64,000 nucleotides of DNA from Thioalkalivibrio sp. K90mix (GTDB lineage: Bacteria; Pseudomonadota; Gammaproteobacteria; Ectothiorhodospirales; Ectothiorhodospiraceae). Every line of letters starts with the position of its first letter. Position 1 is the first letter of the stretch. Of the stretch, positions 26,288 to 38,490 are shown one piece after another. Position numbers and translations under genes: made by a program. The notes under the pieces were generated by a model. That model did no database searches and was not told the DNA's origin. It saw only the letters and a list, made by a program, of their open reading frames with translations. The stretch lies in contig NC_013889.1 in NCBI RefSeq assembly GCF_000025545.1, forward strand, positions 1-64,000, read 5' to 3'.

Positions 26288-27316
26288 ATGAACCGCAAGC
26301 ACCTGCTGACCAGCCTGATCGCCGCCGGCCTGGTCGTCCCGGCCCTGGCCACCGCCGACTGGACGCTGTACGGCCGCGCCCACCTGTCCGCCGACATCCT
26401 GGACGACGGCGCCGACTACAACGAATTCAACGTCTCCAGCAATGCCAGCCGCCTAGGCTTCAAGGGCGAGCGCGAGTTCCGCGAACAGCTCATCGCCATG
26501 TTCCAGATCGAGCAGCAAGTCGACTTCGACACCGCGGCAGACAATGAATTGAGCTTTGCCACGCGCGATACCTTCGTCGGTCTGCGGGGCGACCAGTGGG
26601 GCATGCTGAGGATCGGGAAGTTCGACACCCCGTTCAAGCGCGCCCGCGGGCCGGCCAACTTCTTCGGCGATCAGGTCGGTGACCTGCGCAACCTGACCCG
26701 GTCGCGCGCCCAGACCGGCCGCTTCGACGAGCGCTTCAACAACAGCATCCATTACCAGACGCCCAGCTTCGGCGGCCTGACCTGGAACATCCAGTACTCG
26801 AACGAAACGGACGACGCCACAACCGTGGACGGGGCTGATAACAAGGCCTACTCGACCTCGCTGAACCTGAGCCTGGGCGACCTGACCGGCGCGCTGGCCT
26901 ACGAAAAGCAGGAAGACGGTGACGTGAATCCGGATGCCTGGCGCCTGGCTGTTGGCTACCGCATCACAGAGGCCTTCCGCATCGGCGGCCTCTACCAGAA
27001 TTCCGAGACGGTCAATGGTGACGAGGCGGACGTGTACGGACTGGGCGGCCAGTTCCGTCTGAGCCCGAGCATGTACCTGAACGGCCACGTCTTCCAGCTG
27101 GATTCCGACCTGGACGATGCCGATGCCACGATGTACGCCCTTGGCCTGGAATATCGTATCGACAGCGACCTGCGCTTCTACGGCAACATTGCCATGGTCG
27201 ACAATGACGATGCCTCGGCTCTGACCCCATGGGGTGCGGCGCGCAGTTCCGGCCCGGGTGGCGCGATGGGCGAAAACGCTACGGCCTTTTCGCTTGGCAT
27301 GCGTTACGACTTCTAG
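26288..27316 (+). CDS. Gram-negative porin
   Basis: This 342-residue outer-membrane beta-barrel has a signal peptide (MNRKHLLTSLIAAGLVVPALATA, residues 1-23) and starts its mature part with DWTLYGRAHLSAD, as in neisserial/beta-gamma trimeric porins. It has the typical SRLGFKGERE and WGMLRIGKFDTPF blocks and ends in the barrel-assembly signature RYDF with terminal Phe. The mature protein is rich in Asp and Glu, as in halophilic species. The ribosome binding site GGGGAGA precedes the ATG. Confidence 0.92.
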   Translation: MNRKHLLTSLIAAGLVVPALATADWTLYGRAHLSADILDDGADYNEFNVSSNASRLGFKGEREFREQLIAMFQIEQQVDFDTAADNELSFATRDTFVGLRGDQWGMLRIGKFDTPFKRARGPANFFGDQVGDLRNLTRSRAQTGRFDERFNNSIHYQTPSFGGLTWNIQYSNETDDATTVDGADNKAYSTSLNLSLGDLTGALAYEKQEDGDVNPDAWRLAVGYRITEAFRIGGLYQNSETVNGDEADVYGLGGQFRLSPSMYLNGHVFQLDSDLDDADATMYALGLEYRIDSDLRFYGNIAMVDNDDASALTPWGAARSSGPGGAMGENATAFSLGMRYDF

Positions 27317-27492: not shown

Positions 27493-29112
27493 CTATCCGG
27501 TCGCCTCCTTCAGTCGGATCAGCTTGAGTTCGTGGAACAGCCCCATCATCAGGCTGACGCACATGAACAGCAGCACGATCACGAAGGGCAGGCCGGCGCT
27601 GACGGCACCGGCCTGCAGGGCCTGCAGCGCGGCCGCGCCACCCACCGCCAGCAGCACACCGGCGATCACGCCCTCGACCGTGGCCCAGAACAGGCGCTGG
27701 GACTGCGGGGCGTCGGTCTTGCCGCCGGAGGTGATCGAGTCGATCACCAGCGAGCCGGAGTCTGACGAGGTGATGAAGAAAACCAGGACCAGGGTGATTG
27801 CCAGCAGTGAGGTGATCGTGGTCAGCGGCAGGTGCTCGAGCATCTGGAACAGCGCCAGCGAGGAGTCACTGATGCCGTCGGCCAGTGCACCGACCCCGTC
27901 GCGGGCCTGATCCAGGCCGGTCCCGCCAAAGGCACTCATCCAGATCACGGTCACGGCCGTTGGCACCAGCAGCACCGCGGTCACGAACTGGCGTACCGTG
28001 CGCCCGCGCGAGACCCGTGCGATGAACATGCCGACAAACGGCGACCAGGAGATCCACCAGGCCCAGAAGAAGATCGTCCACTCGTGATAGAAGGTCTGGT
28101 CGTCACGACCCACAGGGTTGCTGAGCGGCCACATGTACTGGGCGTAGGCGCTCAGCGTGATGCCGGTATTGGAGAGGAAGGCGATAAAGCCGCCGAACAG
28201 GGCCACGAACAGTAGCAGTACCACCGCCAGCGTCAGGTTGATGTTGCTGAGCACGCGCACCCCGCCATGGATGCCGCGCATGATCGACAACAGGGCAATT
28301 ACCGTGACGCCGATGATGATCGCGACCTGGGTGTTCAGGCCGGCTTCGATGCCGAACACCGACTCCAGCCCCGATGCCGCCTGCTGCGCCCCAAGACCCA
28401 GGGAGGTGGCCAGGCCGAACAGGGTGGCCAGTACCGCCAGGGTGTCGATCACATGCCCGAGCGGGCCCCAGATCCGCTCGCCGAAGATCGGGTAGAACGC
28501 GGAGCGAATGGTCAGCGGCAGGCCCTTGTTAAAGGCAAAGAACGCCAGCGCCAGGCCTACCACGGCATAGATCGCCCATGGGTGCAGGCCCCAGTGATAC
28601 ATCGTCGCACCCAGGGCCGCGTGCTTCGCTTCCTCGGTGCCGCCCTCGATGCCCAAGGGCGTCCCGAACCACTCGGTGAAGTAGCCTACCGGTTCGGCCA
28701 CGGCCCAGAACATCAGGCCGATGCCCATGCCGGCGGCGAACAGCATCGAGAACCAGGACAGCACGCTGAAGTCCGGCTTCGCATCCTGGCCGCCAATCCG
28801 GATGCTCCCGACCGGCAGCAGGATCAGGGCCAGACAGAACAGCACGAACAGGTTGCCGGCCGACAAGAACAGCCAGTCAAAGGTCTCGCCGATCCAGGCA
28901 CGCGTGGCGCCCAGGCCCTCGTCGGCCTGTTCCGGGAACATCAGGGACAGGATCACGAACGCGAGGATCAGCAGGGCGCTGACGGCGAATACCGGGTTGT
29001 GCAGATCCAGTCCCAGCGGGTTGATGTTCTGTTCCCCGATCTCGTGATCGGTCTCGTAACGGGCCTCGAGCTCCTCGATCTCCCGTTTCGGGTCTTGTGC
29101 GTTGTCGCTCAC
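27493..29112 (-). CDS. BCCT-family betaine/choline/carnitine transporter
   Basis: This 539-residue, 12-helix secondary transporter has BCCT signatures GMGIGLMFWAVAEPVGYF and the aromatic-rich WTIFFWAWWISWSPFVGMF(I)ARVSRGRT segment that forms the trimethylammonium site. BCCT carriers import betaine-type osmolytes with Na+ or H+. The charged N-terminus and lack of a long C-terminal tail fit an Na+-coupled uptake carrier, although osmosensing is unproved. GTG at 29112 is chosen because it lies 5 bp after AGGAGG. It sits beside porins and the osmolyte-like operon. Confidence 0.92.
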   Translation of the reverse strand: MSDNAQDPKREIEELEARYETDHEIGEQNINPLGLDLHNPVFAVSALLILAFVILSLMFPEQADEGLGATRAWIGETFDWLFLSAGNLFVLFCLALILLPVGSIRIGGQDAKPDFSVLSWFSMLFAAGMGIGLMFWAVAEPVGYFTEWFGTPLGIEGGTEEAKHAALGATMYHWGLHPWAIYAVVGLALAFFAFNKGLPLTIRSAFYPIFGERIWGPLGHVIDTLAVLATLFGLATSLGLGAQQAASGLESVFGIEAGLNTQVAIIIGVTVIALLSIMRGIHGGVRVLSNINLTLAVVLLLFVALFGGFIAFLSNTGITLSAYAQYMWPLSNPVGRDDQTFYHEWTIFFWAWWISWSPFVGMFIARVSRGRTVRQFVTAVLLVPTAVTVIWMSAFGGTGLDQARDGVGALADGISDSSLALFQMLEHLPLTTITSLLAITLVLVFFITSSDSGSLVIDSITSGGKTDAPQSQRLFWATVEGVIAGVLLAVGGAAALQALQAGAVSAGLPFVIVLLFMCVSLMMGLFHELKLIRLKEATG

Positions 29113-29302
29113 GCTCACCTCCTTGGTGTGATTGGGGGACGCTGGTCCAGACGTTCTCCGGTCCATCGCCTGGAACTGTCTGACCGCCAGGGCGGTAGTC
29201 TTCGATTGAGACCGCGTCTCCCGAGGTACGAGTCGTTTCGTTCTGGCATCCGGCCGTCGGAATCCGAAACGAAAAATTCGGGACCTTCATGGCTGACTTC
29301 CA

Positions 29303-29352: not shown

Positions 29353-30405
29353 CTAGAAGCTGTAGTGCATGCCGACCATGAACACGTTGTTGCTTCCATC
29401 CTCGGGAAAGTCAGCCCCGGCCCGGCCGGTGTCTCGGGCCCTTGATGCCGGTACCGCACCGGTTGCTTCTTCTTCGTAGTAGTACTCGGCAAACAGGGAC
29501 AGCCCGTCCATCCAGTTGAACGCGTAGCCCAGGTGGAAGACGTCTCCGCCGTAGTTGTCGACGTTGGCGTAGGTTCCGTGGAATATATGTTGCCCCACGG
29601 CGTAGGCGGCGTAGATGTTCGCGGCGACGTCGCCGTCGTCCCCGAAGGCCCCGGCGTCCTGGTCGCTTTCAATGTATTCGACCTTGGCACCCATCGACCA
29701 TGGGCCCATGCTGTGCATCGCGGACACCCCCCAGATCCGAGTGTTCTGCTCGCCATTGGCATCATCGACCCCGACGGAAAGAGTCGTGTCGCCGAAGGCG
29801 TACGAACCGGTCACCTGGTAGCGATCATCTGGAGAGCCCGATGCATCGTCGTAGCCGCCGTTCGCGCTGTAGGAGGCCGCGAACGAGAAGCCGTTGAAGT
29901 CCGGAGAGTAGTACATGAGGCTGTTGCTCTCACGGAAGGTCGTATAGGTCGCGAAGCCGCTCTGGTAGGAGTAGAACATGTCCACCGGGAAGGCGATCGC
30001 GTTGTAATACGGCAGCCAATCGCGGCCATACGCCACGGTACCGAATGCGCCGTCGAGCCCGACCTTGCCGATGCGGACGTCCTCGTCTTCGCCACTGAAG
30101 GGGTCCTGTACTCGGCCGTTGGCCAGGTCGAGCGGGATTTCCAGCTGCGCAAACGCGTTCAGGCTTTCATTGATCTCATAGTTGGCGTTGAAGCCGATGC
30201 GTGAATAGGCATCCCGGAAGCCGTCATAGCTGTCCTCGCCATCCGGGTCCGCCGTTTCGTACTGCAGTCTCAGTGACCCGTAGAAATCGAACTCGACGCC
30301 CCCTGCACCCTCCTGTTCTGCGGGGCTGACCGCTGGCGCCAGAAGAAGCGCCGTGGCAACGGCCCCGGCCAGTGGAGTGAGACTCCACGAAATGTTGTTT
30401 TTCAT
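29353..30405 (-). CDS. Outer-membrane porin (second copy type)
   Basis: The 350-residue protein has a signal peptide (MKNNISWSLTPLAGAVATALLLAPAVSPA is cut near residue 30), a mature barrel starting EFDFYGSLRLQYE, and a C-terminal VGMHYSF with terminal Phe. Blocks such as SRIGFNANYEINESLNAFAQLE and GKVGLDGAFGTVAYGRDW are typical of gammaproteobacterial general porins. ATG at 30405 has AAAGGAA upstream. It is unrelated in detail to the porin at 26288 and is very acidic. It is divergent from the MarR regulator. Confidence 0.9.
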   Translation of the reverse strand: MKNNISWSLTPLAGAVATALLLAPAVSPAEQEGAGGVEFDFYGSLRLQYETADPDGEDSYDGFRDAYSRIGFNANYEINESLNAFAQLEIPLDLANGRVQDPFSGEDEDVRIGKVGLDGAFGTVAYGRDWLPYYNAIAFPVDMFYSYQSGFATYTTFRESNSLMYYSPDFNGFSFAASYSANGGYDDASGSPDDRYQVTGSYAFGDTTLSVGVDDANGEQNTRIWGVSAMHSMGPWSMGAKVEYIESDQDAGAFGDDGDVAANIYAAYAVGQHIFHGTYANVDNYGGDVFHLGYAFNWMDGLSLFAEYYYEEEATGAVPASRARDTGRAGADFPEDGSNNVFMVGMHYSF

Positions 30406-30629
30406 TATTCGTTCCTTTTGGCAGTTCGATCCTGGAATCCGAAAGAGAAACAGGCCCCTGTACCCCCGGGGGACCGATGGCGAGCTCCCGAGGAACCGCC
30501 ACAACCGTTTCTGTCGCGTATGGCTAACGAGAGGCCCGTTTTGTTGCCCAGAGACCGGATCCTGGTGACCTCGGCTAGCCGGAAACCCCATTAATAGAAC
30601 GCGCTCGCCGCTTTCGCCAGCAAAGGACA

Positions 30630-30677
30630 AGTTGCAACTCCATTATTTTTGTACAAAACTATATGGCATTTGCCATA
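30630..30677. promoter_or_regulatory. Cluster of three palindromes before marR
   Basis: Three perfect dyads lie in 48 bp: AGTTGCAACT (30630-30639), TTTTGTACAAAA (30647-30658) and TATGGCA-TT-TGCCATA (30662-30677). They occupy the marR/porin divergent spacer and are good candidates for MarR-dimer operators giving autoregulation. The third overlaps the first possible marR start codon, so either it is an operator and translation begins at 30693, or binding blocks initiation. Confidence 0.5.
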
Positions 30678-31211
30678 CTGAGTCCGACTGTGATGTCAGC
30701 TGTTTCTGCCCAGAACGAACCTCATCGCCCCGCGACGGAAGGGGAACCGGATCTGTCGCGTTCCGTGATCCGTCAGCTGCGCGTGATCATCCGCGCCCTG
30801 CAGGGGCATTCGCGGGCAGTGGAGCGTGCCTGCGGGATCAGTGCCTCGCAGTTGTGGGCCCTGTGGGAGCTGCAGCGCACGCCCGGGCTGAATGTCAGCG
30901 ACCTTTCGCGCCGGCTGTCGGTGCATGCCTCGACCACCTCGAACCTGCTGGACAAGCTGGAATACAGCGGGCTCGTCGAGCGCCGCCGCCCGGAGAAGGA
31001 CCAGCGCATCGTGCGGCTGTATGTCACGCCCAAGGGGGAGGCGCTCCTGTCCGACGCCCCGGCAGCCCCCCAGGGCGAGTTGAACCGCGCGTTGCACGCT
31101 CTCCCGCCCGAGCGGCTGGCGGATCTGGACGAAGGGCTTACCCTCCTGGTCGAGGCGATGAACACCACCGAGCCTCGTGCCGGTCTGCAGCCGTTCGAGG
31201 TGAAAACCTGA
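30663..31211 (+). CDS. MarR-family transcriptional regulator
   Basis: This winged helix-turn-helix dimeric regulator has the MarR pattern: a recognition region GLNVSDLSRRLSVHASTTSNLLDKLEYSGLVER (about 77-110) and the wing RRPEKDQRIVRLYVTPKG, which includes the D-x-R signature. ATG at 30663 gives 182 residues; ATG at 30693 gives 172 and would free the palindrome at 30662 from coding. Neither has a strong ribosome binding site. It precedes the carbamoylase/transporter/carbamoyltransferase genes and is a reasonable candidate regulator for them. The ligand is unknown. Confidence 0.87.
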   Translation: MAFAILSPTVMSAVSAQNEPHRPATEGEPDLSRSVIRQLRVIIRALQGHSRAVERACGISASQLWALWELQRTPGLNVSDLSRRLSVHASTTSNLLDKLEYSGLVERRRPEKDQRIVRLYVTPKGEALLSDAPAAPQGELNRALHALPPERLADLDEGLTLLVEAMNTTEPRAGLQPFEVKT

Positions 31212-31237: not shown

Positions 31238-31639
31238 ATGCGCTCCCTCCTGCCCGCCAGCCTGCTGCTTCTGCTGCTGCCGCTGGTTGTACTGGCCGAG
31301 CCCCGATTCGACGACCCGCCCACGGACTCGCGTGATGGCGGTCTAACCCTCGAATGGAACGCCGAGGGGCCCGTCGAACTCGAACAGGCGAGCGGTCCGG
31401 ACTTCGACGACGCCCGCGTGATCTATCGCGGTGGCGACACCAGCAGCGTAGTCAGCGGCCTCCCGGACGGCGAATATCGCTTTCGCCTGCGGGCCGATGG
31501 CGCGGACGACTGGGCCGACGAGGCCCGGATCGATGTGGCGCACCACAGCCTGGCCCGCGCGTTCGGCTTCTTCGCGCTGGGAGGCGTCGTCTTTCTGGTC
31601 CTGATCGTGGCCATCCTGCGCGGTCGCCCGCGCGACTGA
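31238..31639 (+). CDS. Small exported protein with C-terminal membrane anchor
   Basis: The 133-residue product has a signal peptide (MRSLLPASLLLLLLPLVVLA), an approximately 80-residue beta-rich domain resembling a fibronectin type III fold (LEWNAEGPVELEQAS ... SSVVSGLPDGEYRFRLRA), and a C-terminal transmembrane helix (ALGGVVFLVLIVAIL) followed by a basic tail. This predicts a periplasmic domain anchored in the inner membrane. The fold assignment is inference from the G-L-x-x-G-x-Y-x-F-R-L pattern. It lies 26 bp after marR and may be cotranscribed. Confidence 0.7.
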   Translation: MRSLLPASLLLLLLPLVVLAEPRFDDPPTDSRDGGLTLEWNAEGPVELEQASGPDFDDARVIYRGGDTSSVVSGLPDGEYRFRLRADGADDWADEARIDVAHHSLARAFGFFALGGVVFLVLIVAILRGRPRD

Positions 31640-31708: not shown

Positions 31709-32950
31709 ATGCACGAACTCAAGATCAACATGCAGCGCCTGCAGCAGGACATTACCGAGCTGGGGCAGATTGGACGCGATGCCGACCGTGGTTTGCACCG
31801 CCGGGCGTTCAGCGAGGGCGACCGCGCGGGGCGCGAGTGGTTTCGCGGCCGCCTGGAGGCCGCGGGCCTCGACGTCTGGCAGGATGGCGCTGCCAACCTG
31901 CACGGTCGCCTGGACTACGACGGCAAGCGCCCGGTGGTCGCCATGGGCTCGCATCTCGATACCGTCCCCGGTGGTGGCCCGCTGGATGGTGCCCTGGGGG
32001 TGCTGATCGGGCTGGAGGTGCTGCGCACGGCCAAGGAACATGAGGTCGACTTGCAGTACCCGCTGGAGGTCATCGACTTCACTGACGAGGAGGGCCGCTT
32101 CGGCGGCATGTTCGGCTCCCAGGCGATGGCCGGAAAGCTGACCCCGGAGAGCATCAGCCATGCCCGTGACCTCGAGGGCATCACCCTGGTCGAGGCGATG
32201 GCCAACTGGGGCCTGAATGCCGACGACGCCCTGAGCGCGCGACGCGACCCGCACACCCTGCATGCCTTCATCGAGACCCATATCGAGCAGGGCCCGGTGC
32301 TGGATCGCCGCGGCCTGAGCGTGGGCGTGGTCGAGGCCATCACCGGCCTGTTCAAGTGGGAGGTGCGCCTGAAGGGCCAGCCGAACCATGCGGGCACCAC
32401 GCCGATGGACATGCGCATCGACGCGTTCCAGGGGCTGGCCGAATTCGGCGGCGAGATCAATCGTCTGCTGGAGGAGCACGGCAGCCCGAACTCGCGCGCG
32501 ACTATCGGCCGCGTAGAGCTCTCGCCGGGCGCGGCGAACACCGTGCCGGGCATGGCGACCTTCTCCTTCGAGGTGCGCGATACCGACGAGAAGGTATTGA
32601 CCGCGCTGGCCCACGCGGCCCGCCGCACGCTGTCCAGCCTCGCGCGCCGGCGTGACCTGATGTTCGAGTTCGACGTGCTCTCGGAGATCGATCCGGTGCG
32701 CTGCGACACGGGCATCGTGCAGACCATCGAGGCGACCGCCGAACGCATGGGGCTGGAGTACCTGACCATGCCCAGCGGCGCTGCGCACGACACCCAGAGC
32801 ATGAGTGCAATCACGCGTACTGGCATGATCTTCGTACCGAGCCTGCAGGGGCGTAGCCATTCCGCGGCGGAATGGACAAACTGGGAGGACATCGAGACCG
32901 GCGCCAACCTGACGCTGCAAAGCGCCCTGGCCCTGGCCGCCCGTTCGTGA
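31709..32950 (+). CDS. M20-type N-carbamoyl-amino-acid hydrolase (Zn amidase)
   Basis: This 413-residue hydantoinase/carbamoylase-family enzyme belongs with N-carbamoyl-L-amino-acid hydrolases, allantoate amidohydrolase and beta-ureidopropionase. Metal-ligand residues are visible: His82 in MGSHLDTV, Asp93 in PLDGALG, Glu127-Glu128 in FTDEEG, His in ETHIEQGPVLD (about 195) and His in GRSHSAAEW (about 387). The GLFKWEVRLKGQPNHAGTTPMDMR lid/dimer motif is also present. It would release ammonia and CO2 from a carbamoylated amine. As first gene of the osmolyte-like operon, it is proposed to remove the carbamoyl group from a stored solute. The exact substrate is not determined. Confidence 0.88.
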   Translation: MHELKINMQRLQQDITELGQIGRDADRGLHRRAFSEGDRAGREWFRGRLEAAGLDVWQDGAANLHGRLDYDGKRPVVAMGSHLDTVPGGGPLDGALGVLIGLEVLRTAKEHEVDLQYPLEVIDFTDEEGRFGGMFGSQAMAGKLTPESISHARDLEGITLVEAMANWGLNADDALSARRDPHTLHAFIETHIEQGPVLDRRGLSVGVVEAITGLFKWEVRLKGQPNHAGTTPMDMRIDAFQGLAEFGGEINRLLEEHGSPNSRATIGRVELSPGAANTVPGMATFSFEVRDTDEKVLTALAHAARRTLSSLARRRDLMFEFDVLSEIDPVRCDTGIVQTIEATAERMGLEYLTMPSGAAHDTQSMSAITRTGMIFVPSLQGRSHSAAEWTNWEDIETGANLTLQSALALAARS

Positions 32951-32986
32951 GCATCCCCGATCACCGCGACCCAAGGACCGCCCGGC

Positions 32987-33730
32987 ATGGCCAATAACGA
33001 CAACGTCTCCCAGCTCACTGACTACGACTCCCTGGACCCGCTGCGCGAGCAGTACCAGGAGAGCCTGATCACGACCCCGGTGCTGCGTCAGGAACTGCGC
33101 GAGCACCACGTCGCCCTGCTGTGCATTGACCTGCAGTACCTGGATGCCGCGCGCGGTCATGGGGTGTTCGCCGACTCGGTGCAGTCCGGCGTGCCGCCCG
33201 AGGCGCAGGAGTACTACTTCAACCGCCTGGAGCAGACGGTGCTGCCGAACGTGCGCCGGCTGCAGGATGCATTCCGCGAGCAGGGGCTGGAGGTCATCCA
33301 CACGCGTATCCGTTCGCTGACCCACGACGGGCGCGACCGCAGCCCGGGCCACAAGCGCCTGAACCTGCATGCCGCGCCCGGCTCCAAGGATGCGGAGTTC
33401 GTCGAGCAGGTCGCACCGGTGGGCGACGAGATCGTGCTGGACAAGACCGCTAGCGGCGTCTTCAATTCGACCAACCTGCACTACATCCTGCGCAACCTGA
33501 ACATCTCGGCACTGTTCATCGTGGGTGTGTACTCGAACGAGTGCGTATCCACGGCCGTGCGCGATGCCTGTGACCTGGGTTTCTATGTCACGCTGATGGA
33601 CGACGCCACCGCCACGGTGACCCCGGAGATGCAGAAGGCGACGATCACCACCATCAAGGATCGCTACGCCCGCGTGATGACCACCGACGAGGCGATCCGC
33701 GAGATCAAGAAGGTGAAGGAGGCCTCGTGA
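32987..33730 (+). CDS. Isochorismatase-family cysteine amidase
   Basis: The 247-residue cysteine hydrolase has the nicotinamidase/isochorismatase fold and a full D-K-C triad: Asp48 in LLCIDLQ, Lys153 in LDKTASGVFNST, and Cys186 in YSNECVSTAVRDA. A roughly 40-residue N-terminal extension precedes the core. Relatives hydrolyse amides such as nicotinamide, N-carbamoylsarcosine and biuret. Sitting between a carbamoylase and a symporter, its proposed role is to hydrolyse a primary amide of the same compound. Its stop overlaps the symporter start (GTGA), implying coupled translation. Confidence 0.87.
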   Translation: MANNDNVSQLTDYDSLDPLREQYQESLITTPVLRQELREHHVALLCIDLQYLDAARGHGVFADSVQSGVPPEAQEYYFNRLEQTVLPNVRRLQDAFREQGLEVIHTRIRSLTHDGRDRSPGHKRLNLHAAPGSKDAEFVEQVAPVGDEIVLDKTASGVFNSTNLHYILRNLNISALFIVGVYSNECVSTAVRDACDLGFYVTLMDDATATVTPEMQKATITTIKDRYARVMTTDEAIREIKKVKEAS

Positions 33731-35193
33731 CCGGCCTCGACGACCCGATCCTCCCGAGTTCCATCGCCTGGGGGCTGCTGATCGCGTTCAGCATCCTCTG
33801 GGTGGCGCTCGGCTGGTGGCTGGGTCGTCACAACAAGACCGCCGAGGACCACATGCTGGCCGGGCGCAACGTCGGGCTGGCGCTGGCCACCGCGACTGCG
33901 ATGGCCACCTGGGTGACGGCCAACACCACGATGACCGCCCCGCAGCTGGCGTTGCAGCTGGGCGTCTGGGGCATGCTCGGGTATTCCCTGGGGGCGCTGG
34001 GCCTGATCCTGTTCGCGCCGCTGGCTCGTCGCATCCGCGAGCTGATGCCGCGCGGCTTCACCTCCGGGGACTTCATCCGGCTGCGCTTCGGCACCTTTAC
34101 CTGGCGGGTATTCCTGGTGGTCTCGCTGATCTACGCCTTCGGCTGGCTTGTGTCGATGGCGATGGCCGGCGGGGTGCTGATCAATGCCCTGGCCGGGATC
34201 GACTATCGCGTGGGCATGACCGTGATCCTCACGGTCTGCGTGATCTACACCCTGCTGGGCGGTCTGCGCGCGGTTATCGGTACGGACTTCATCCAGACCA
34301 TCATCATCATCGCGGGTGCGGCGTTCATCGCCTGGCTGACCATCGACAAGGTTGGGTTCGAGGCGATCCATTTCAACCTGATGGAAGAGCGCCCGGAACT
34401 GCTGAGTCTGCTGTTCCCGGCCGCAATAATGTTCCTGTTCAACAACCTGCTGTTCGGGGTCGGCGAGATCTTCCACTCCAACGTCTGGTGGTCGCGCGCC
34501 TTTGCCTTTGGCCGCAACGTCGGCTTTCGTGCCTACCTGCTGGGCGGGCTGCTGTGGCTGCCGATCCCGATCGTCGCCGGCTTCCTCGCCCTGGCCACGC
34601 CGGCGCTGGGCATCAACGTGCCCGCCGCGGACATGGTCGGGCCGCTGGTCGCGGCCGAGGTCCTCGGCCTGACCGGCGCGATCGTGGTCTTCATCGTCGT
34701 CTTCGCCGCCTTGGCCTCGAGCCTCGACTCGCTGCTGGCGGCCACCTCGGACCTGGTCACCCGCGATATCTACCGCGGCCATATCCGCCCGCAGGCCAGC
34801 GAGCAGAGCCAGTTCCGCGCGACCAAGGTGATCGTTGTGCTGCTGGGTCTGCTGACCTGGCTGGCCGCGAGCTATCGCGGCTCGCTGCCGATCATCGGCT
34901 CGCTGGCCGAACTGCTGTACTTTACGGGGGCCTTCGTGGCCTCGGCGATCTGGCCGATCGTCGCCGGGCTGTACTGGCGGCGGGCGAACCCTCAGGGCGC
35001 GGCCTGGTCGATGATACTGGGGTCGGGCATTGGGCTGGCCAGCTATTTCCTGATCGGCTTCTATGTCGCGGCACTGGTGGGCGCGGCCGTCTCCCTGGCC
35101 GTGATGGTGCTGAGTACCTGGCTGGCGCCGCGGCCGTTCGACTGGGGTCGCCTGTCCCGCGACGCCGCGGCCGAGGAGGTCCGGACCGCATGA
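33727..35193 (+). CDS. Sodium:solute symporter (SSS family)
   Basis: This is a 488-residue transporter of the SSS/LeuT-fold family with about 13 helices. The SSS hallmarks are AEDHMLAGRNVGL at the start of helix 1, ATWVTANTTMTAPQLALQLG, and a conserved Ser/Asp region ALASSLDSLLAATSDLVTRDIYR that forms the Na2 site. Family members take up urea, proline, pantothenate, sugars or other solutes with Na+. The substrate here is inferred from context to be the solute metabolised by the flanking hydrolases. GTG at 33727 overlaps the preceding stop; the 3' end overlaps the 40-codon gene. Confidence 0.88.
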   Translation: MTGLDDPILPSSIAWGLLIAFSILWVALGWWLGRHNKTAEDHMLAGRNVGLALATATAMATWVTANTTMTAPQLALQLGVWGMLGYSLGALGLILFAPLARRIRELMPRGFTSGDFIRLRFGTFTWRVFLVVSLIYAFGWLVSMAMAGGVLINALAGIDYRVGMTVILTVCVIYTLLGGLRAVIGTDFIQTIIIIAGAAFIAWLTIDKVGFEAIHFNLMEERPELLSLLFPAAIMFLFNNLLFGVGEIFHSNVWWSRAFAFGRNVGFRAYLLGGLLWLPIPIVAGFLALATPALGINVPAADMVGPLVAAEVLGLTGAIVVFIVVFAALASSLDSLLAATSDLVTRDIYRGHIRPQASEQSQFRATKVIVVLLGLLTWLAASYRGSLPIIGSLAELLYFTGAFVASAIWPIVAGLYWRRANPQGAAWSMILGSGIGLASYFLIGFYVAALVGAAVSLAVMVLSTWLAPRPFDWGRLSRDAAAEEVRTA

Positions 35194-35312
35194 TGATCTC
35201 GTCGACTGCCTTGTCCGTGATCGTTGTGGTTGCCACGCTGGTCGCCACCCTGACCCCGATCCTGCTGCTGGCCCTGTTCATTCGCGACTGGAAAAAAGGA
35301 TGCCTCTGGTGA
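35190..35312 (+). CDS. 40-residue single-helix membrane protein
   Basis: A very small gene is inserted with ATGA overlap at the symporter stop and GTGA overlap with the next gene. The peptide has a short polar start (MMISSTALS), one hydrophobic helix (residues 9-31, with a central Pro) and a basic, aromatic tail (RDWKKGCLW). The tight double overlap argues for real translation. By analogy with small partners of other SSS carriers (for example the YhdT-PanF pair), it may be an accessory subunit of the symporter; this is inference. Confidence 0.65.
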   Translation: MMISSTALSVIVVVATLVATLTPILLLALFIRDWKKGCLW

Positions 35313-36382
35313 ACTACACCGAAGATCCCCTGCACGTGCTCCACCCGAAAGACGGCGCCGCCGGCACCGACCGCCCGAAGGCGCTCCTTGAGGCCGTGGA
35401 GGAAGACCCGGACCCGCTCCTGAAGCTGGCGGCCGCGCATGTGGTCTCCAGTCAGCAGTTCTCGCGCGATGAACTGCTGCAGCTGTTCCGTCTGGCGGCG
35501 CAGTACGAGACCACTCCGGCGCTGATGCACCTGCCGCTGGCCGGCAAGATTCTGATCAGTGCGTTCTACGAGCCGTCCACGCGCACGCGGCTGTCCTTCG
35601 AGAGCGCCTGGCACCGGCTTGGCGGGGCGGTGATGTCGATCACCGACCCCAAGAGCACCGGCATCGCCAAGGGCGAGTCGCTGGCGGACATCGCCGAGAT
35701 GTTCAACAACTACGGCGACGTGCTGGTGCTGCGCTCCTCGGATGGCGAGGCGGCGCACAACATGCTGGAGAACCTGCGCATCCCGCTGGTCAACGCGGGC
35801 AACGGGATCGACGAGCATCCGACCCAGGCGCTGGCGGACGTCTACACCCTGGCCAAGTGGCGACCGGAGCTGTTCACCGGCCCGGTGGCGCCGGAGGACC
35901 GCATCAAGGTCGGTATCATCGGGGTGCCCTCGCGCATGCGCACGGTGCGTTCGCTGCTGCGCCTGCTAAGCCTGTTCCCGGAGGCAATCGAAGAGGTCGT
36001 GATCATCTCGCGCGAGGACGAGAACTTTGACCCGGGTCAGCGCGAGGAGTTGGAAGAGGCCGGCCTGAAGCTGCGCGTGGTGCACGAACTGGACCCGCTG
36101 CTGCCGGAGCTGGACGTCGTCTACATCAACGCCATTGCCTGGGTGGGGGATACGTTCGAGTCCATGGGCGAGGGCCTGAAGCTGGATCGCAACTCCCCGC
36201 TCAAGAAGGGCGCGGTCATCCTGCACCCGCTGGCACGCGGTGACGAGCTGTCCACGGACCTCGACGACACCCCGCACAACTGGTACTTCGCCCAGGCCCG
36301 CGGGGCCGTGTTCGTGCGCATGGCGCTGCTGACCACGGTGGTCCGCCGGATCAGCGCGGTCATGGATACCCCGGAAGACTGA
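35309..36382 (+). CDS. ATCase-like carbamoyltransferase with altered substrate site
   Basis: This 357-residue member of the aspartate/ornithine carbamoyltransferase family keeps the carbamoyl-phosphate site: S-T-R-T (residues 90-93), the 80s-loop Lys121 in GIAKGES, Arg142, H-P-T-Q (170-173) and Arg211 in MRTVRS. The pair that binds the aspartate side chain in E. coli ATCase (Arg229 and Gln231) aligns with Ala275 and Ala277, and the PLP loop reads PLA. A different amine acceptor is therefore expected. GTG at 35309 is preferred (AAGGA 8 bp upstream); ATG at 35300 abuts the ribosome binding site. Context favours glutamine or a derivative as acceptor. No pyrimidine genes are adjacent, so a housekeeping PyrB role is less likely. 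Confidence 0.85.
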   Translation: MNYTEDPLHVLHPKDGAAGTDRPKALLEAVEEDPDPLLKLAAAHVVSSQQFSRDELLQLFRLAAQYETTPALMHLPLAGKILISAFYEPSTRTRLSFESAWHRLGGAVMSITDPKSTGIAKGESLADIAEMFNNYGDVLVLRSSDGEAAHNMLENLRIPLVNAGNGIDEHPTQALADVYTLAKWRPELFTGPVAPEDRIKVGIIGVPSRMRTVRSLLRLLSLFPEAIEEVVIISREDENFDPGQREELEEAGLKLRVVHELDPLLPELDVVYINAIAWVGDTFESMGEGLKLDRNSPLKKGAVILHPLARGDELSTDLDDTPHNWYFAQARGAVFVRMALLTTVVRRISAVMDTPED

Positions 36383-36471
36383 GCCAAAGTCGAACTTGAA
36401 CCGCGAGCGGCGTGGCGCGCCGTAAACCGCGCCCCGCTCGCACCCACGGAATCGAACCAAGGAGACATGCC

Positions 36472-38490
36472 ATGTGTGGCATCGCCGGAATCTTTCACGC
36501 CGACCCCAACCGCAAGGTGGACCCGCAGACCCTGGTCAACATGGCCGCGATCCAGTATCACCGCGGCCCCGACGGCTTCGGCTACAAGACGCTGGACGAC
36601 CGCGGCGTGGGCTTCTCCCATGCCCGCCTGTCGATCATCGACCTGGACGAAAACCGCGGCCGCCAGCCGTTCTGTATGACCGACGGATCGATCATGACCG
36701 CGGTCAACGGCGAGCTGTACGACTACAAGCGCATCCGTACCGACCTGACCTCGCGCGGCGTGCAGTTCCGCACCAAGAGCGACTCCGAGATGGTCATGCA
36801 CCTGTACCGGCGCGAGGGGCTGGAGGATGCGATCAAGCACTTCCGCGGCGAGTTCGCGATCTCGCTGTATGACCGCGAGCATGATCGCCTGGTGCTGATC
36901 CGCGACCGCTTCGGCATCAAGCCGCTGTATTTCACCGAGGCCAATGGCAGCTTCGTGTTCGGCTCCGAGCTGAAGGTGCTGTTCGCCAATCCCGACGTCC
37001 CGCGCCAGTTTGCCGATGACGGCCTGTACCACCAGCTGATGCAGACCATGGTCCCGGGCACCACTGCGTTCGAGGGCATCCACCAAGTGAAGCCCGGCCA
37101 CATGGTCATCGTCGAACGGGCCCACGGCAAGCTGAAGGTGCGCCAGGAGAAGTACTGGGACATGGACTTCCCGCTGGCCTCCGAGCGCCCGCCGGAGGAG
37201 GATGCCGACGAGAACTACTGGATCGAGGGCGTGCGGGAACAGTTGATGGAGGCCGTCCAGCTGCGCCTGGAGGCCGACGTGCCGGTCGCCTGCTACCTCT
37301 CCGGCGGGATCGACTCCTGCATCACGCTGGGCCTGGCCTCGGCCAGCCAGCAGTCGCCGGTCAAGGCCTTCACCATCGGCTTCGACAACGACGACTACGA
37401 CGAAACGGCGATTGCCCGCGAGATGGCCGAGAGCGTCGGCGCCGACCAGGACATCCTGAAGCTGAATGCGGACCACCTCTACGACAACTTCGAAGAGGCC
37501 CTGTGGCACGCCGAGCGCACCATCTACAACACGCTGGGGGTGGCCAAGCTGTTGATGAGCCGGCACGTGAACGAGGCGGGCTACAAGGTGGTGGTGACCG
37601 GCGAGGGCTCGGACGAGCTGTTCGGTGGCTACCCGGCCTTCCGCCGCGACATGTTCCTGCACGGCCTGGACACCCTGCCGGAGGCTGACCGCGCCGCCTG
37701 GCAGCAGATGCTGAACGAGTCCAACGAGCTGTTCTCCGGCGCGATGCTGGCCGAGGACGAGGTCGACGACCCCGAGTTCACGAAGATGATGGGCTTTACG
37801 CCGTCCTGTCTGCAGCCCTGGCTGGCGGCAGCCGAGCACGTGCCCGGCCTGCTGGCGCCGGAGCGCCGCGAACGCATGCAGGACTACCAGCCCGGCAAGG
37901 CGATCGCCAACGCCCTGGACGACGACATGCTGGATGGCCGGCATCCGCTGGACAAGGCCCAGTACGTCTGGATCAAGACCATGCTGGAGGGCCAGATCCT
38001 GACCTGGGGTGGCGACCGCATGGACATGGCCAACTCCATGGAGGCGCGCCCGCCGTTTCTCGACCACCACCTGGCCGAGTTCTGCGCCCACCTGCCGCCG
38101 ACCCTGCGCATCAAGGGCCGCACCGAGAAGTACGTGCTGCGCGAATCGATGAAGGGCCTGCTCCCGAAGGTGCTCTACGAGCGCGAGAAGTTCGCATTCA
38201 TGGCCCCACCCGCGCACACCGACCCGGTCAAGTGGGCAGCGATGAAGGCCCTGGCCGATCGCTACCTGTCGCCCGAGAAGGTGGCCGAGGCGGGTCTGCT
38301 GGACCCGGAAGGCGTGCGTCGTGTGTTCGAGATCCACGAGGACGAGAACACCCCGGCGGCCACCCAGGTACAGCTGGACGCGGTGATCAACCACATGATC
38401 GGGGTGCAGGTCCTGCACGAGAAGTTCGTCGCCACCGACATCCCGGCACTGGCCCGCCAGAAGGCCGACGAGTTCGGCTGGCGGCCGTAA
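36472..38490 (+). CDS. Asparagine-synthetase-like glutamine amidotransferase
   Basis: This 672-residue class II amidotransferase begins MCGIAGIFHADP, so Cys2 becomes the N-terminal glutaminase nucleophile. The glutaminase domain (to about 210) contains YHRGPDG and NGELYDY. The synthetase domain has the ATP-pyrophosphatase loop S-G-G-I-D-S (277-282), TGEGSDELFGGYPAFRRD and RPPFLDH. It would adenylate a carboxylate and replace it with NH3 from glutamine. Relatives amidate aspartate, peptidoglycan or dipeptide osmolytes (NAGGN). Position after the carbamoyltransferase suggests it amidates the alpha-carboxyl of a carbamoylated amino acid. The ribosome binding site AAGGAG precedes ATG 36472; the open frame extends 20 codons upstream. 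Confidence 0.87.
   Translation: MCGIAGIFHADPNRKVDPQTLVNMAAIQYHRGPDGFGYKTLDDRGVGFSHARLSIIDLDENRGRQPFCMTDGSIMTAVNGELYDYKRIRTDLTSRGVQFRTKSDSEMVMHLYRREGLEDAIKHFRGEFAISLYDREHDRLVLIRDRFGIKPLYFTEANGSFVFGSELKVLFANPDVPRQFADDGLYHQLMQTMVPGTTAFEGIHQVKPGHMVIVERAHGKLKVRQEKYWDMDFPLASERPPEEDADENYWIEGVREQLMEAVQLRLEADVPVACYLSGGIDSCITLGLASASQQSPVKAFTIGFDNDDYDETAIAREMAESVGADQDILKLNADHLYDNFEEALWHAERTIYNTLGVAKLLMSRHVNEAGYKVVVTGEGSDELFGGYPAFRRDMFLHGLDTLPEADRAAWQQMLNESNELFSGAMLAEDEVDDPEFTKMMGFTPSCLQPWLAAAEHVPGLLAPERRERMQDYQPGKAIANALDDDMLDGRHPLDKAQYVWIKTMLEGQILTWGGDRMDMANSMEARPPFLDHHLAEFCAHLPPTLRIKGRTEKYVLRESMKGLLPKVLYEREKFAFMAPPAHTDPVKWAAMKALADRYLSPEKVAEAGLLDPEGVRRVFEIHEDENTPAATQVQLDAVINHMIGVQVLHEKFVATDIPALARQKADEFGWRP

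Follow-up and report, generated by a model that had tools for sequence, protein, structure and literature searches.

Within the first 64,000 nucleotides of contig 1 of the 2.99-Mb genome of Thioalkalivibrio sp. K90mix (hereafter, the window), we describe a gene cluster that probably makes, imports or retains, and recycles N-alpha-carbamoyl-L-glutamine 1-amide (carbamoylglutamine amide, CGA) as an osmolyte, a reading built on comparative sequence analysis that offers candidate genes for an orphan compatible solute. In the proposed pathway, a carbamoyltransferase (CTase) would place the carbamoyl group of carbamoyl phosphate onto the alpha-amino group of L-glutamine. An AsnB-type amidotransferase would next use ATP to activate the alpha-carboxylate and convert it to the amide, a second glutamine supplying the ammonia, which would leave the solute uncharged. 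To take up or retain it, the cell would rely on an SSS-family Na+ symporter with two single-helix partners, one FN3-like and probably periplasmic, the other 40 amino acids (aa) long. For recycling, a cysteine hydrolase would take off the 1-amide, and an M20-family carbamoylase would subsequently take off the carbamoyl group, returning glutamine, CO2 and ammonia. A MarR protein would exert control, presumably in response to salt, at TTTTGYRCAAAA, which recurs ahead of metK and next to the glycine-betaine operon.

New here are a gene for a predicted FN3-like protein (31238-31639), which the first-pass annotation of this DNA had missed and which goes with the symporter and its 40-aa partner, and the occurrence of the palindrome TTTTGYRCAAAA at three sites of the genome. 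More tentatively, we propose a widespread and complete system, comprising a glutamine-specific CTase with a dedicated amidotransferase, a three-part Na+ symporter that would be a new SSS assembly, and a MarR protein co-controlling glycine-betaine and S-adenosylmethionine synthesis; this fuller picture is possible, but we would not yet call it probable. If this holds, CGA would be widespread as a solute among marine and soda-lake bacteria, having been missed for three decades. The predictions include a new carbamoyltransferase specificity, a new multi-part symporter, and CGA itself in many bacteria for which no report was found, among them Thiorhodospira sibirica.

The known producer and gene co-occurrence

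CGA has been known as a salt protectant since 1991, and the strain used by Galinski and Oren was reportedly Ectothiorhodospira marismortui DSM 4180. CGA is given in the literature as an accumulated solute of E. marismortui (PMC1224877) and DSM 4180 as FOUO00000000 (PMC8877833); the record NZ_FOUO01000006.1 (locus L083) bears the older name E. mobilis DSM 4180. Its gene order is MarR, carbamoylase, cysteine hydrolase, CTase, AsnB, so that the paired genes, which the first-pass annotation had proposed to look for in known producers, stand adjacent in the type strain together with both hydrolases and the MarR gene. This adjacency, in a strain with three CTases in all (the cluster's and two others, presumably the housekeeping pair), supports CGA as the product. 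A sucrose synthase gene (L083:4903-7287) beside the main cluster is another possible osmolyte link. The same annotation knew of no published gene assignment for CGA, and none was found in the open-licence literature, subscription papers lying outside the search. In its excerpts, one study names CGA as a possible solute, gives no genes, and describes T. sibirica as lacking annotated genes for osmotic stress (PMC7824335).

Within Thioalkalivibrio, a CTase ortholog at ≥80% identity occurred in 24 of 30 genomes, and the six others are all ≤80% complete (one, G014, has a 22-residue piece). Named Thioalkalivibrio strains carry a CTase 93-99% identical to the window's, and all seven genomes of other genera in the family carry one at 68-74%. 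Among 369 sampled Gammaproteobacteria, the CTase was present at ≥60% identity in 23, the next CTase-like proteins reaching ≤44%. AsnB (E ≤ 1e-150) was found in exactly these 23 genomes and the symporter (E ≤ 1e-120) in 22 of them, neither in any other of the 369; the sole genome without a symporter match, G115, is 81% complete. Such identical CTase and AsnB sets, with the symporter nearly always alongside, support a common function in CGA metabolism.

We show that, across 80 named loci (the best 80 of at least 576 confirmed relatives, 15 of them without room on one side), 78 have AsnB no more than 3.5 kb behind CTase in the same orientation, and 69 have the symporter just upstream of CTase. 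Therefore, the grouping is not due to chance. The two loci without a nearby AsnB are a contig end and T. sibirica, whose CTase, AsnB and symporter genes are dispersed yet all retained. Carriers include Ectothiorhodospira, Thiohalobacter, Idiomarinaceae, Kangiella, Pleionea, and metagenome-assembled genomes (MAGs) of Leptospiraceae and Spirochaetaceae, from habitats that we take to be mostly marine or saline; E. lacustris is described in excerpted literature as coming from low-mineralised soda lakes. CGA, earlier designated an Ectothiorhodospira osmolyte, should not be seen as a speciality of that genus, given the genes in all searched Thioalkalivibrio genomes above 80% completeness and in Idiomarinaceae, Kangiella and spirochaete MAGs.

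Carbamoyltransferase and its acceptor

The CTase matches the ATCase/OTCase families. Residues are given in the numbering of E. coli aspartate carbamoyltransferase (ATCase), mapped by motif. Equivalents of the carbamoyl-phosphate site (STRTR, K84, R105, H134 and Q137) plus R167 are kept in 36/36 CTases. In contrast, R229 and Q231, which we take to be the residues holding the aspartate side chain in ATCase, are lost in all 36, with A27/S7/T2 and A33/S2/V1 instead, as expected for a neutral amino-acid acceptor. The acceptor-site loop residues 277, 279 and 281 (N, I and W) are invariant in 36/36, which argues for one acceptor across the family. The window's CTase matched 17 CTase models and reached the cut-off of none; it scores 199 bits on TIGR00670 (cut-off 237), a model that the genome's own PyrB passes. 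In silico, residues and scores together indicate an enzyme specific for neither aspartate nor ornithine. As judged from these residues, glutamine or another neutral amino acid would suit the active site, and aspartate would not.

The main rival explanation keeps the two-step chemistry and the osmolyte role, with another neutral amino acid (for example asparagine, alanine or serine) as acceptor, either in Thioalkalivibrio or in certain lineages. That R229 and Q231 are lost tells no more than that the side chain is not acidic; furthermore, members outside the genus range over 60-74% identity, a broad family, with a smaller gene set in Idiomarinaceae and Kangiella. However, CGA is to our knowledge the sole N-carbamoyl-amino-acid amide reported, its species' type strain has the three CTases noted above, and the invariant loop points to a single acceptor. 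We consider a different acceptor unlikely, though it deserves to be kept in mind, and retain glutamine.

CTase-like proteins at five loci (L053-L057, 38-44% identity) were left out as members: STRTR is broken in three (L053, L054 and L056), and the alignment rows of L055 and L057 do not cover this region. AsnB was not found in their short flanks, and they are possibly a non-carbamoylating ATCase relative. Separately, a Candidatus Tenderia MAG (L092:10001-11098) has a CTase stretch with in-frame stop codons, attributable to a frameshift, assembly error or decay.

Transport and regulation

The symporter reaches 118 bits on PF00474 (gathering cut-off 22.8) and remains below the cut-offs of TIGR00813 (149 bits, cut-off 184), PutP and PanF. 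The product of 31238-31639, for which no Pfam or NCBIfam match was obtained, is predicted to be an FN3-like membrane protein partnering the symporter. Its AlphaFold (AF2) model has a pLDDT of 91.5, and Foldseek gave a best E of 3.4e-4 with TMt ≤0.71 to FN3 domains, Ig domains being nearly equal. Members of this family (signal peptide, beta domain, motif VxHxxLxxAxxxFxxGxxxF and one helix) were recovered by motif in 52 of 84 loci, some of which stop short of the gene's place, and 27 aligned members share 8 invariant columns. The 40-aa gene stands directly before CTase in 50/80 loci (tblastn or motif); of four loci checked in which the symporter is relocated, it follows the symporter in three. 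In E. marismortui, the symporter ortholog (66%) is on another contig near trkH, with an FN3-like gene before it (by eye, one frame) and a 40-aa-type gene after it; here, as in G033 and G276, the three genes stand together, apart from CTase. In two genomes of the family, trkH lies close to the relocated symporter; this and the BCCT carrier adjoining the window's cluster are in keeping with an osmolyte role. The three-part symporter idea fits less well in Thiorhodospira, where the symporter is without either partner and the 40-aa gene remains before CTase. In a spirochaete MAG, a P-II nitrogen regulator gene (L118:7061-7474) directly precedes an FN3-like/symporter/CTase/AsnB cluster.

Upstream, the palindrome TTTTGTACAAAA lies 34 bp ahead of the probable start codon of the MarR gene, whose orthologs likewise head the cluster in loci of Thioalkalivibrio and Ectothiorhodospira. 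Exact TTTTGYRCAAAA precedes the MarR gene in 15 of the 18 Thioalkalivibrio loci reaching that place, and a tandem pair, TTGTACAAAAA...TTGTGCAAAAA, is found in 8/8 Ectothiorhodospira loci. In the window's genome, TTTTGYRCAAAA occurs at 3 sites versus 0.066 expected from a first-order model of the window's composition, and its reversed control at 0. The second site is 32 bp before the S-adenosylmethionine synthetase gene metK (L188, G000:C1:2511774). The third (L185/L217, G000:C1:187455) falls in the gap between purH (TIGR00355, 664 bits) and a divergent glycine-betaine synthesis operon, with a glycine/sarcosine N-methyltransferase (NF051855, 503 bits) and next to it a sarcosine/dimethylglycine methyltransferase (412 bits, below the model cut-off of 550). 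The same three sites are found in T. versutus AL2, and those at the cluster and at metK in T. halophilus HL17. This sharing may point to osmoadaptation and suggests a small osmolyte regulon in Thioalkalivibrio, in which the cluster's own MarR would act at the TTTTGYRCAAAA sites and the purH-side site would serve the methyltransferases.

In E. marismortui, TTGYRCAAAAA is present only at this cluster. A search of eight genomes gave sites elsewhere in four Ectothiorhodospira genomes and no match in G413 or G414, the latter having the TTTTGYRCAAAA form at its cluster (L076); as control counts ran up to 3, no regulon is claimed in Ectothiorhodospira. Thiorhodospira has 3 TTTTGYRCAAAA matches, close to a control count of 2, and the sole match in E. 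haloalkaliphila falls within a receptor-like open reading frame (ORF). A second palindrome of the window, ATATGGCATTTGCCATAC (30661-30678), was dropped as an operator, being absent from the relatives' loci examined and occurring once in the genome.

Another rival is that the compound serves chiefly to store or transport nitrogen and not as an osmolyte. Four nitrogens per six carbons, the P-II gene preceding the spirochaete cluster, and a MarR gene with two hydrolases, which would permit controlled release, are all in line with it. Nevertheless, the palindrome is common to metK and the betaine-operon region, and the carriers' habitats are mostly marine or saline. CGA was, moreover, published as an osmotic solute (PMC1224877, PMC3857566). 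A chiefly nitrogen-storing role thus seems improbable to us, and an osmolyte remains the preferred reading.

Remaining enzymes, layout and known systems

The AsnB-type enzyme scores 421 bits on TIGR01536 (cut-off 267; scored from GTG 36412) and carries the N-terminal Cys (MCGIAG) and the ATP site SGGIDS (SGGxDS). On TIGR03104, the AsnO model for the amidotransferase of N-acetylglutaminylglutamine amide (NAGGN) synthesis, it scores 302 bits, below the cut-off of 570, and a separate gene in the window's genome scores 916. A separate gene above this cut-off exists in 5/7 carrier genomes checked, which supports a role in CGA synthesis for the cluster's enzyme. That the latter makes NAGGN or glutathione amide, with the CTase a second, unrelated activity, is very improbable: it does score on the NAGGN model, and glutathione amide is discussed for Ectothiorhodospiraceae (PMC8877833), but the score is far too low, AsnB co-occurs exactly with CTase, and E. 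marismortui carries the pair yet is given in the same excerpts as the exception to the glutathione-amide marker (PMC8877833).

The M20 hydrolase passes TIGR01879 (370 bits, cut-off 204) and NF006771, a subfamily named allantoate amidohydrolase (532 bits, cut-off 399), and remains below the cut-offs of the allantoate deiminase AllC model TIGR03176 (257 bits, cut-off 598) and of the ErtE equivalog. Its nearest solved structure, 3n5f (281 bits), is an N-carbamoyl-L-amino-acid hydrolase with the GSHLD, TDEEG, HIEQG and SGAAHD motifs in common, which supports removal of a carbamoyl group. Solved relatives of the cysteine hydrolase include a cysteine hydrolase, N-carbamoylsarcosine amidohydrolase, biuret hydrolase and RutB. 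Both hydrolases are present in 45/80 named loci; some loci of Idiomarinaceae, Kangiella and relatives (L094-L138) have a 43-48% carbamoylase homolog nearby. A cluster for allantoate or ureide catabolism with a spare aspartate carbamoyltransferase, as the subfamily name of the M20 hydrolase and the ATCase fold of the CTase might suggest, is scarcely credible given the missed AllC cut-off, an L-carbamoylase as nearest structure, a CTase without R229 and Q231, and an ATP-using amidotransferase that has no place there.

Several observations weigh against CGA metabolism as the function. The Idiomarinaceae and Kangiella loci are without close homologs of both hydrolases: 24 loci among L094-L138 whose flanks extend far enough on either side carry symporter, CTase and AsnB and no close carbamoylase or cysteine hydrolase. 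Three Thioalkalivibrio loci (L065, L068 and L074) have only near variants of TTTTGYRCAAAA (by eye), exact TTTTGYRCAAAA has 0 matches in the genomes of E. marismortui and G033, and the betaine-side site has the divergent purH as its closer neighbour (101 bp, against 364 bp for the methyltransferase). Excerpts of one paper describe CGA as a minor solute, so far from one organism only (PMC3857566), despite which the genes occur in 8/8 Ectothiorhodospira loci and in almost every Thioalkalivibrio genome examined. At 3.0 M Na+, T. versutus D301 shows higher expression of glnA and nitrate genes, with no such rise for betaine genes, and in the excerpted RNA-seq table of salt-induced nitrogen genes the cluster is not listed (PMC9062515). 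The word "carbamoyl" is absent from the Thioalkalivibrio papers searched, including one in which glycine betaine was measured (PMC8092127), and no enzyme or metabolite data were found for carriers besides the published producer.

All six co-directional genes of the first-pass annotation are present (Table 1), and profile searches matched the families it had named (carbamoylase, cysteine hydrolase, Na+ symporter, CTase and AsnB-like amidotransferase), the tiny membrane protein having no family match. The neighbouring BCCT carrier and porins were likewise confirmed. Of its several 4-bp overlaps, those at 33727-33730 and 35190-35193 stand, whereas the 40-aa gene and CTase overlap by 13 bp. The cluster extends further 5' by the MarR and FN3-like genes. 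For the amidotransferase, ATG 36472 (MCGIAG..., after AAGGAG) is very probably the start codon, not GTG 36412, because the catalytic Cys has to follow the initiator Met; for MarR, ATG 30693 is more likely than the ORF start, since 30663 falls 4 bp past the palindrome. Neither symporter nor CTase was matched in a PADLOC scan, a sigma-70 scan gave 1 promoter-like site, not above shuffles (mean 0.9), and terminator-like sites numbered 7 versus 3.6 expected.

Table 1 Features of the candidate CGA cluster and its neighbours in the window.
Feature	Position	Strand	Basis
Two porins next to cluster	26288-27316 and 29353-30630		
BCCT carrier next to cluster	27493-29166		
Operator-like palindrome TTTTGTACAAAA upstream of MarR gene	30647-30658	no strand	sequence
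MarR-family regulator	30693-31211	+	PF01047 2e-15; ORF from 30663
Predicted FN3-like protein with signal peptide (by eye) and one membrane helix at the C-terminus	31238-31639	+	
M20 N-carbamoyl-L-amino-acid hydrolase (L-carbamoylase)	31709-32950	+	TIGR01879, NF006771
Isochorismatase-like cysteine hydrolase, probable 1-amidase	32987-33730	+	PF00857 5.8e-33
SSS-family Na+/solute symporter, probable CGA importer	33727-35193	+	PF00474 5.8e-34
40-aa single-helix membrane protein, C-terminus DWKKGCLW, putative small symporter partner	35190-35312	+	no family match
CTase, ATCase fold, predicted L-glutamine N-alpha-carbamoyltransferase	35300-36382	+	
AsnB-type glutamine-dependent amidotransferase, predicted N-carbamoylglutamine 1-amide synthetase	36472-38490	+	TIGR01536

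The M20 hydrolase belongs to the hydantoinase/L-carbamoylase family (TIGR01879) by membership and the four motifs common with 3n5f, but it adjoins biosynthetic genes and falls under the ErtE and AllC cut-offs. The symporter shares family PF00474 with PutP and PanF and differs in lying below their cut-offs and that of TIGR00813 and in its two putative single-helix partners. MarR-type control of betaine genes is described in excerpts on Bacillus subtilis (PMC7396694); the likeness is in MarR-type regulators over osmolyte genes, while the genes and the phylum are others. With PyrB, the CTase has the fold, the carbamoyl-phosphate site and R167 in common, in contrast to its A/S/T and A/S/V at the R229 and Q231 positions and its score below the TIGR00670 cut-off. 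Another parallel is NAGGN synthesis, likewise of a glutamine-based, end-capped, uncharged osmolyte whose C-terminal amide is formed by an AsnB-type enzyme, and in which asnO has an acetyltransferase-containing partner. Here, the N-terminal cap would be carbamoyl, added by the CTase, not acetyl, and there would be no peptide bond; the cluster's AsnB misses the TIGR03104 cut-off by a wide margin, and 5/7 genomes checked carry both it and the NAGGN gene.

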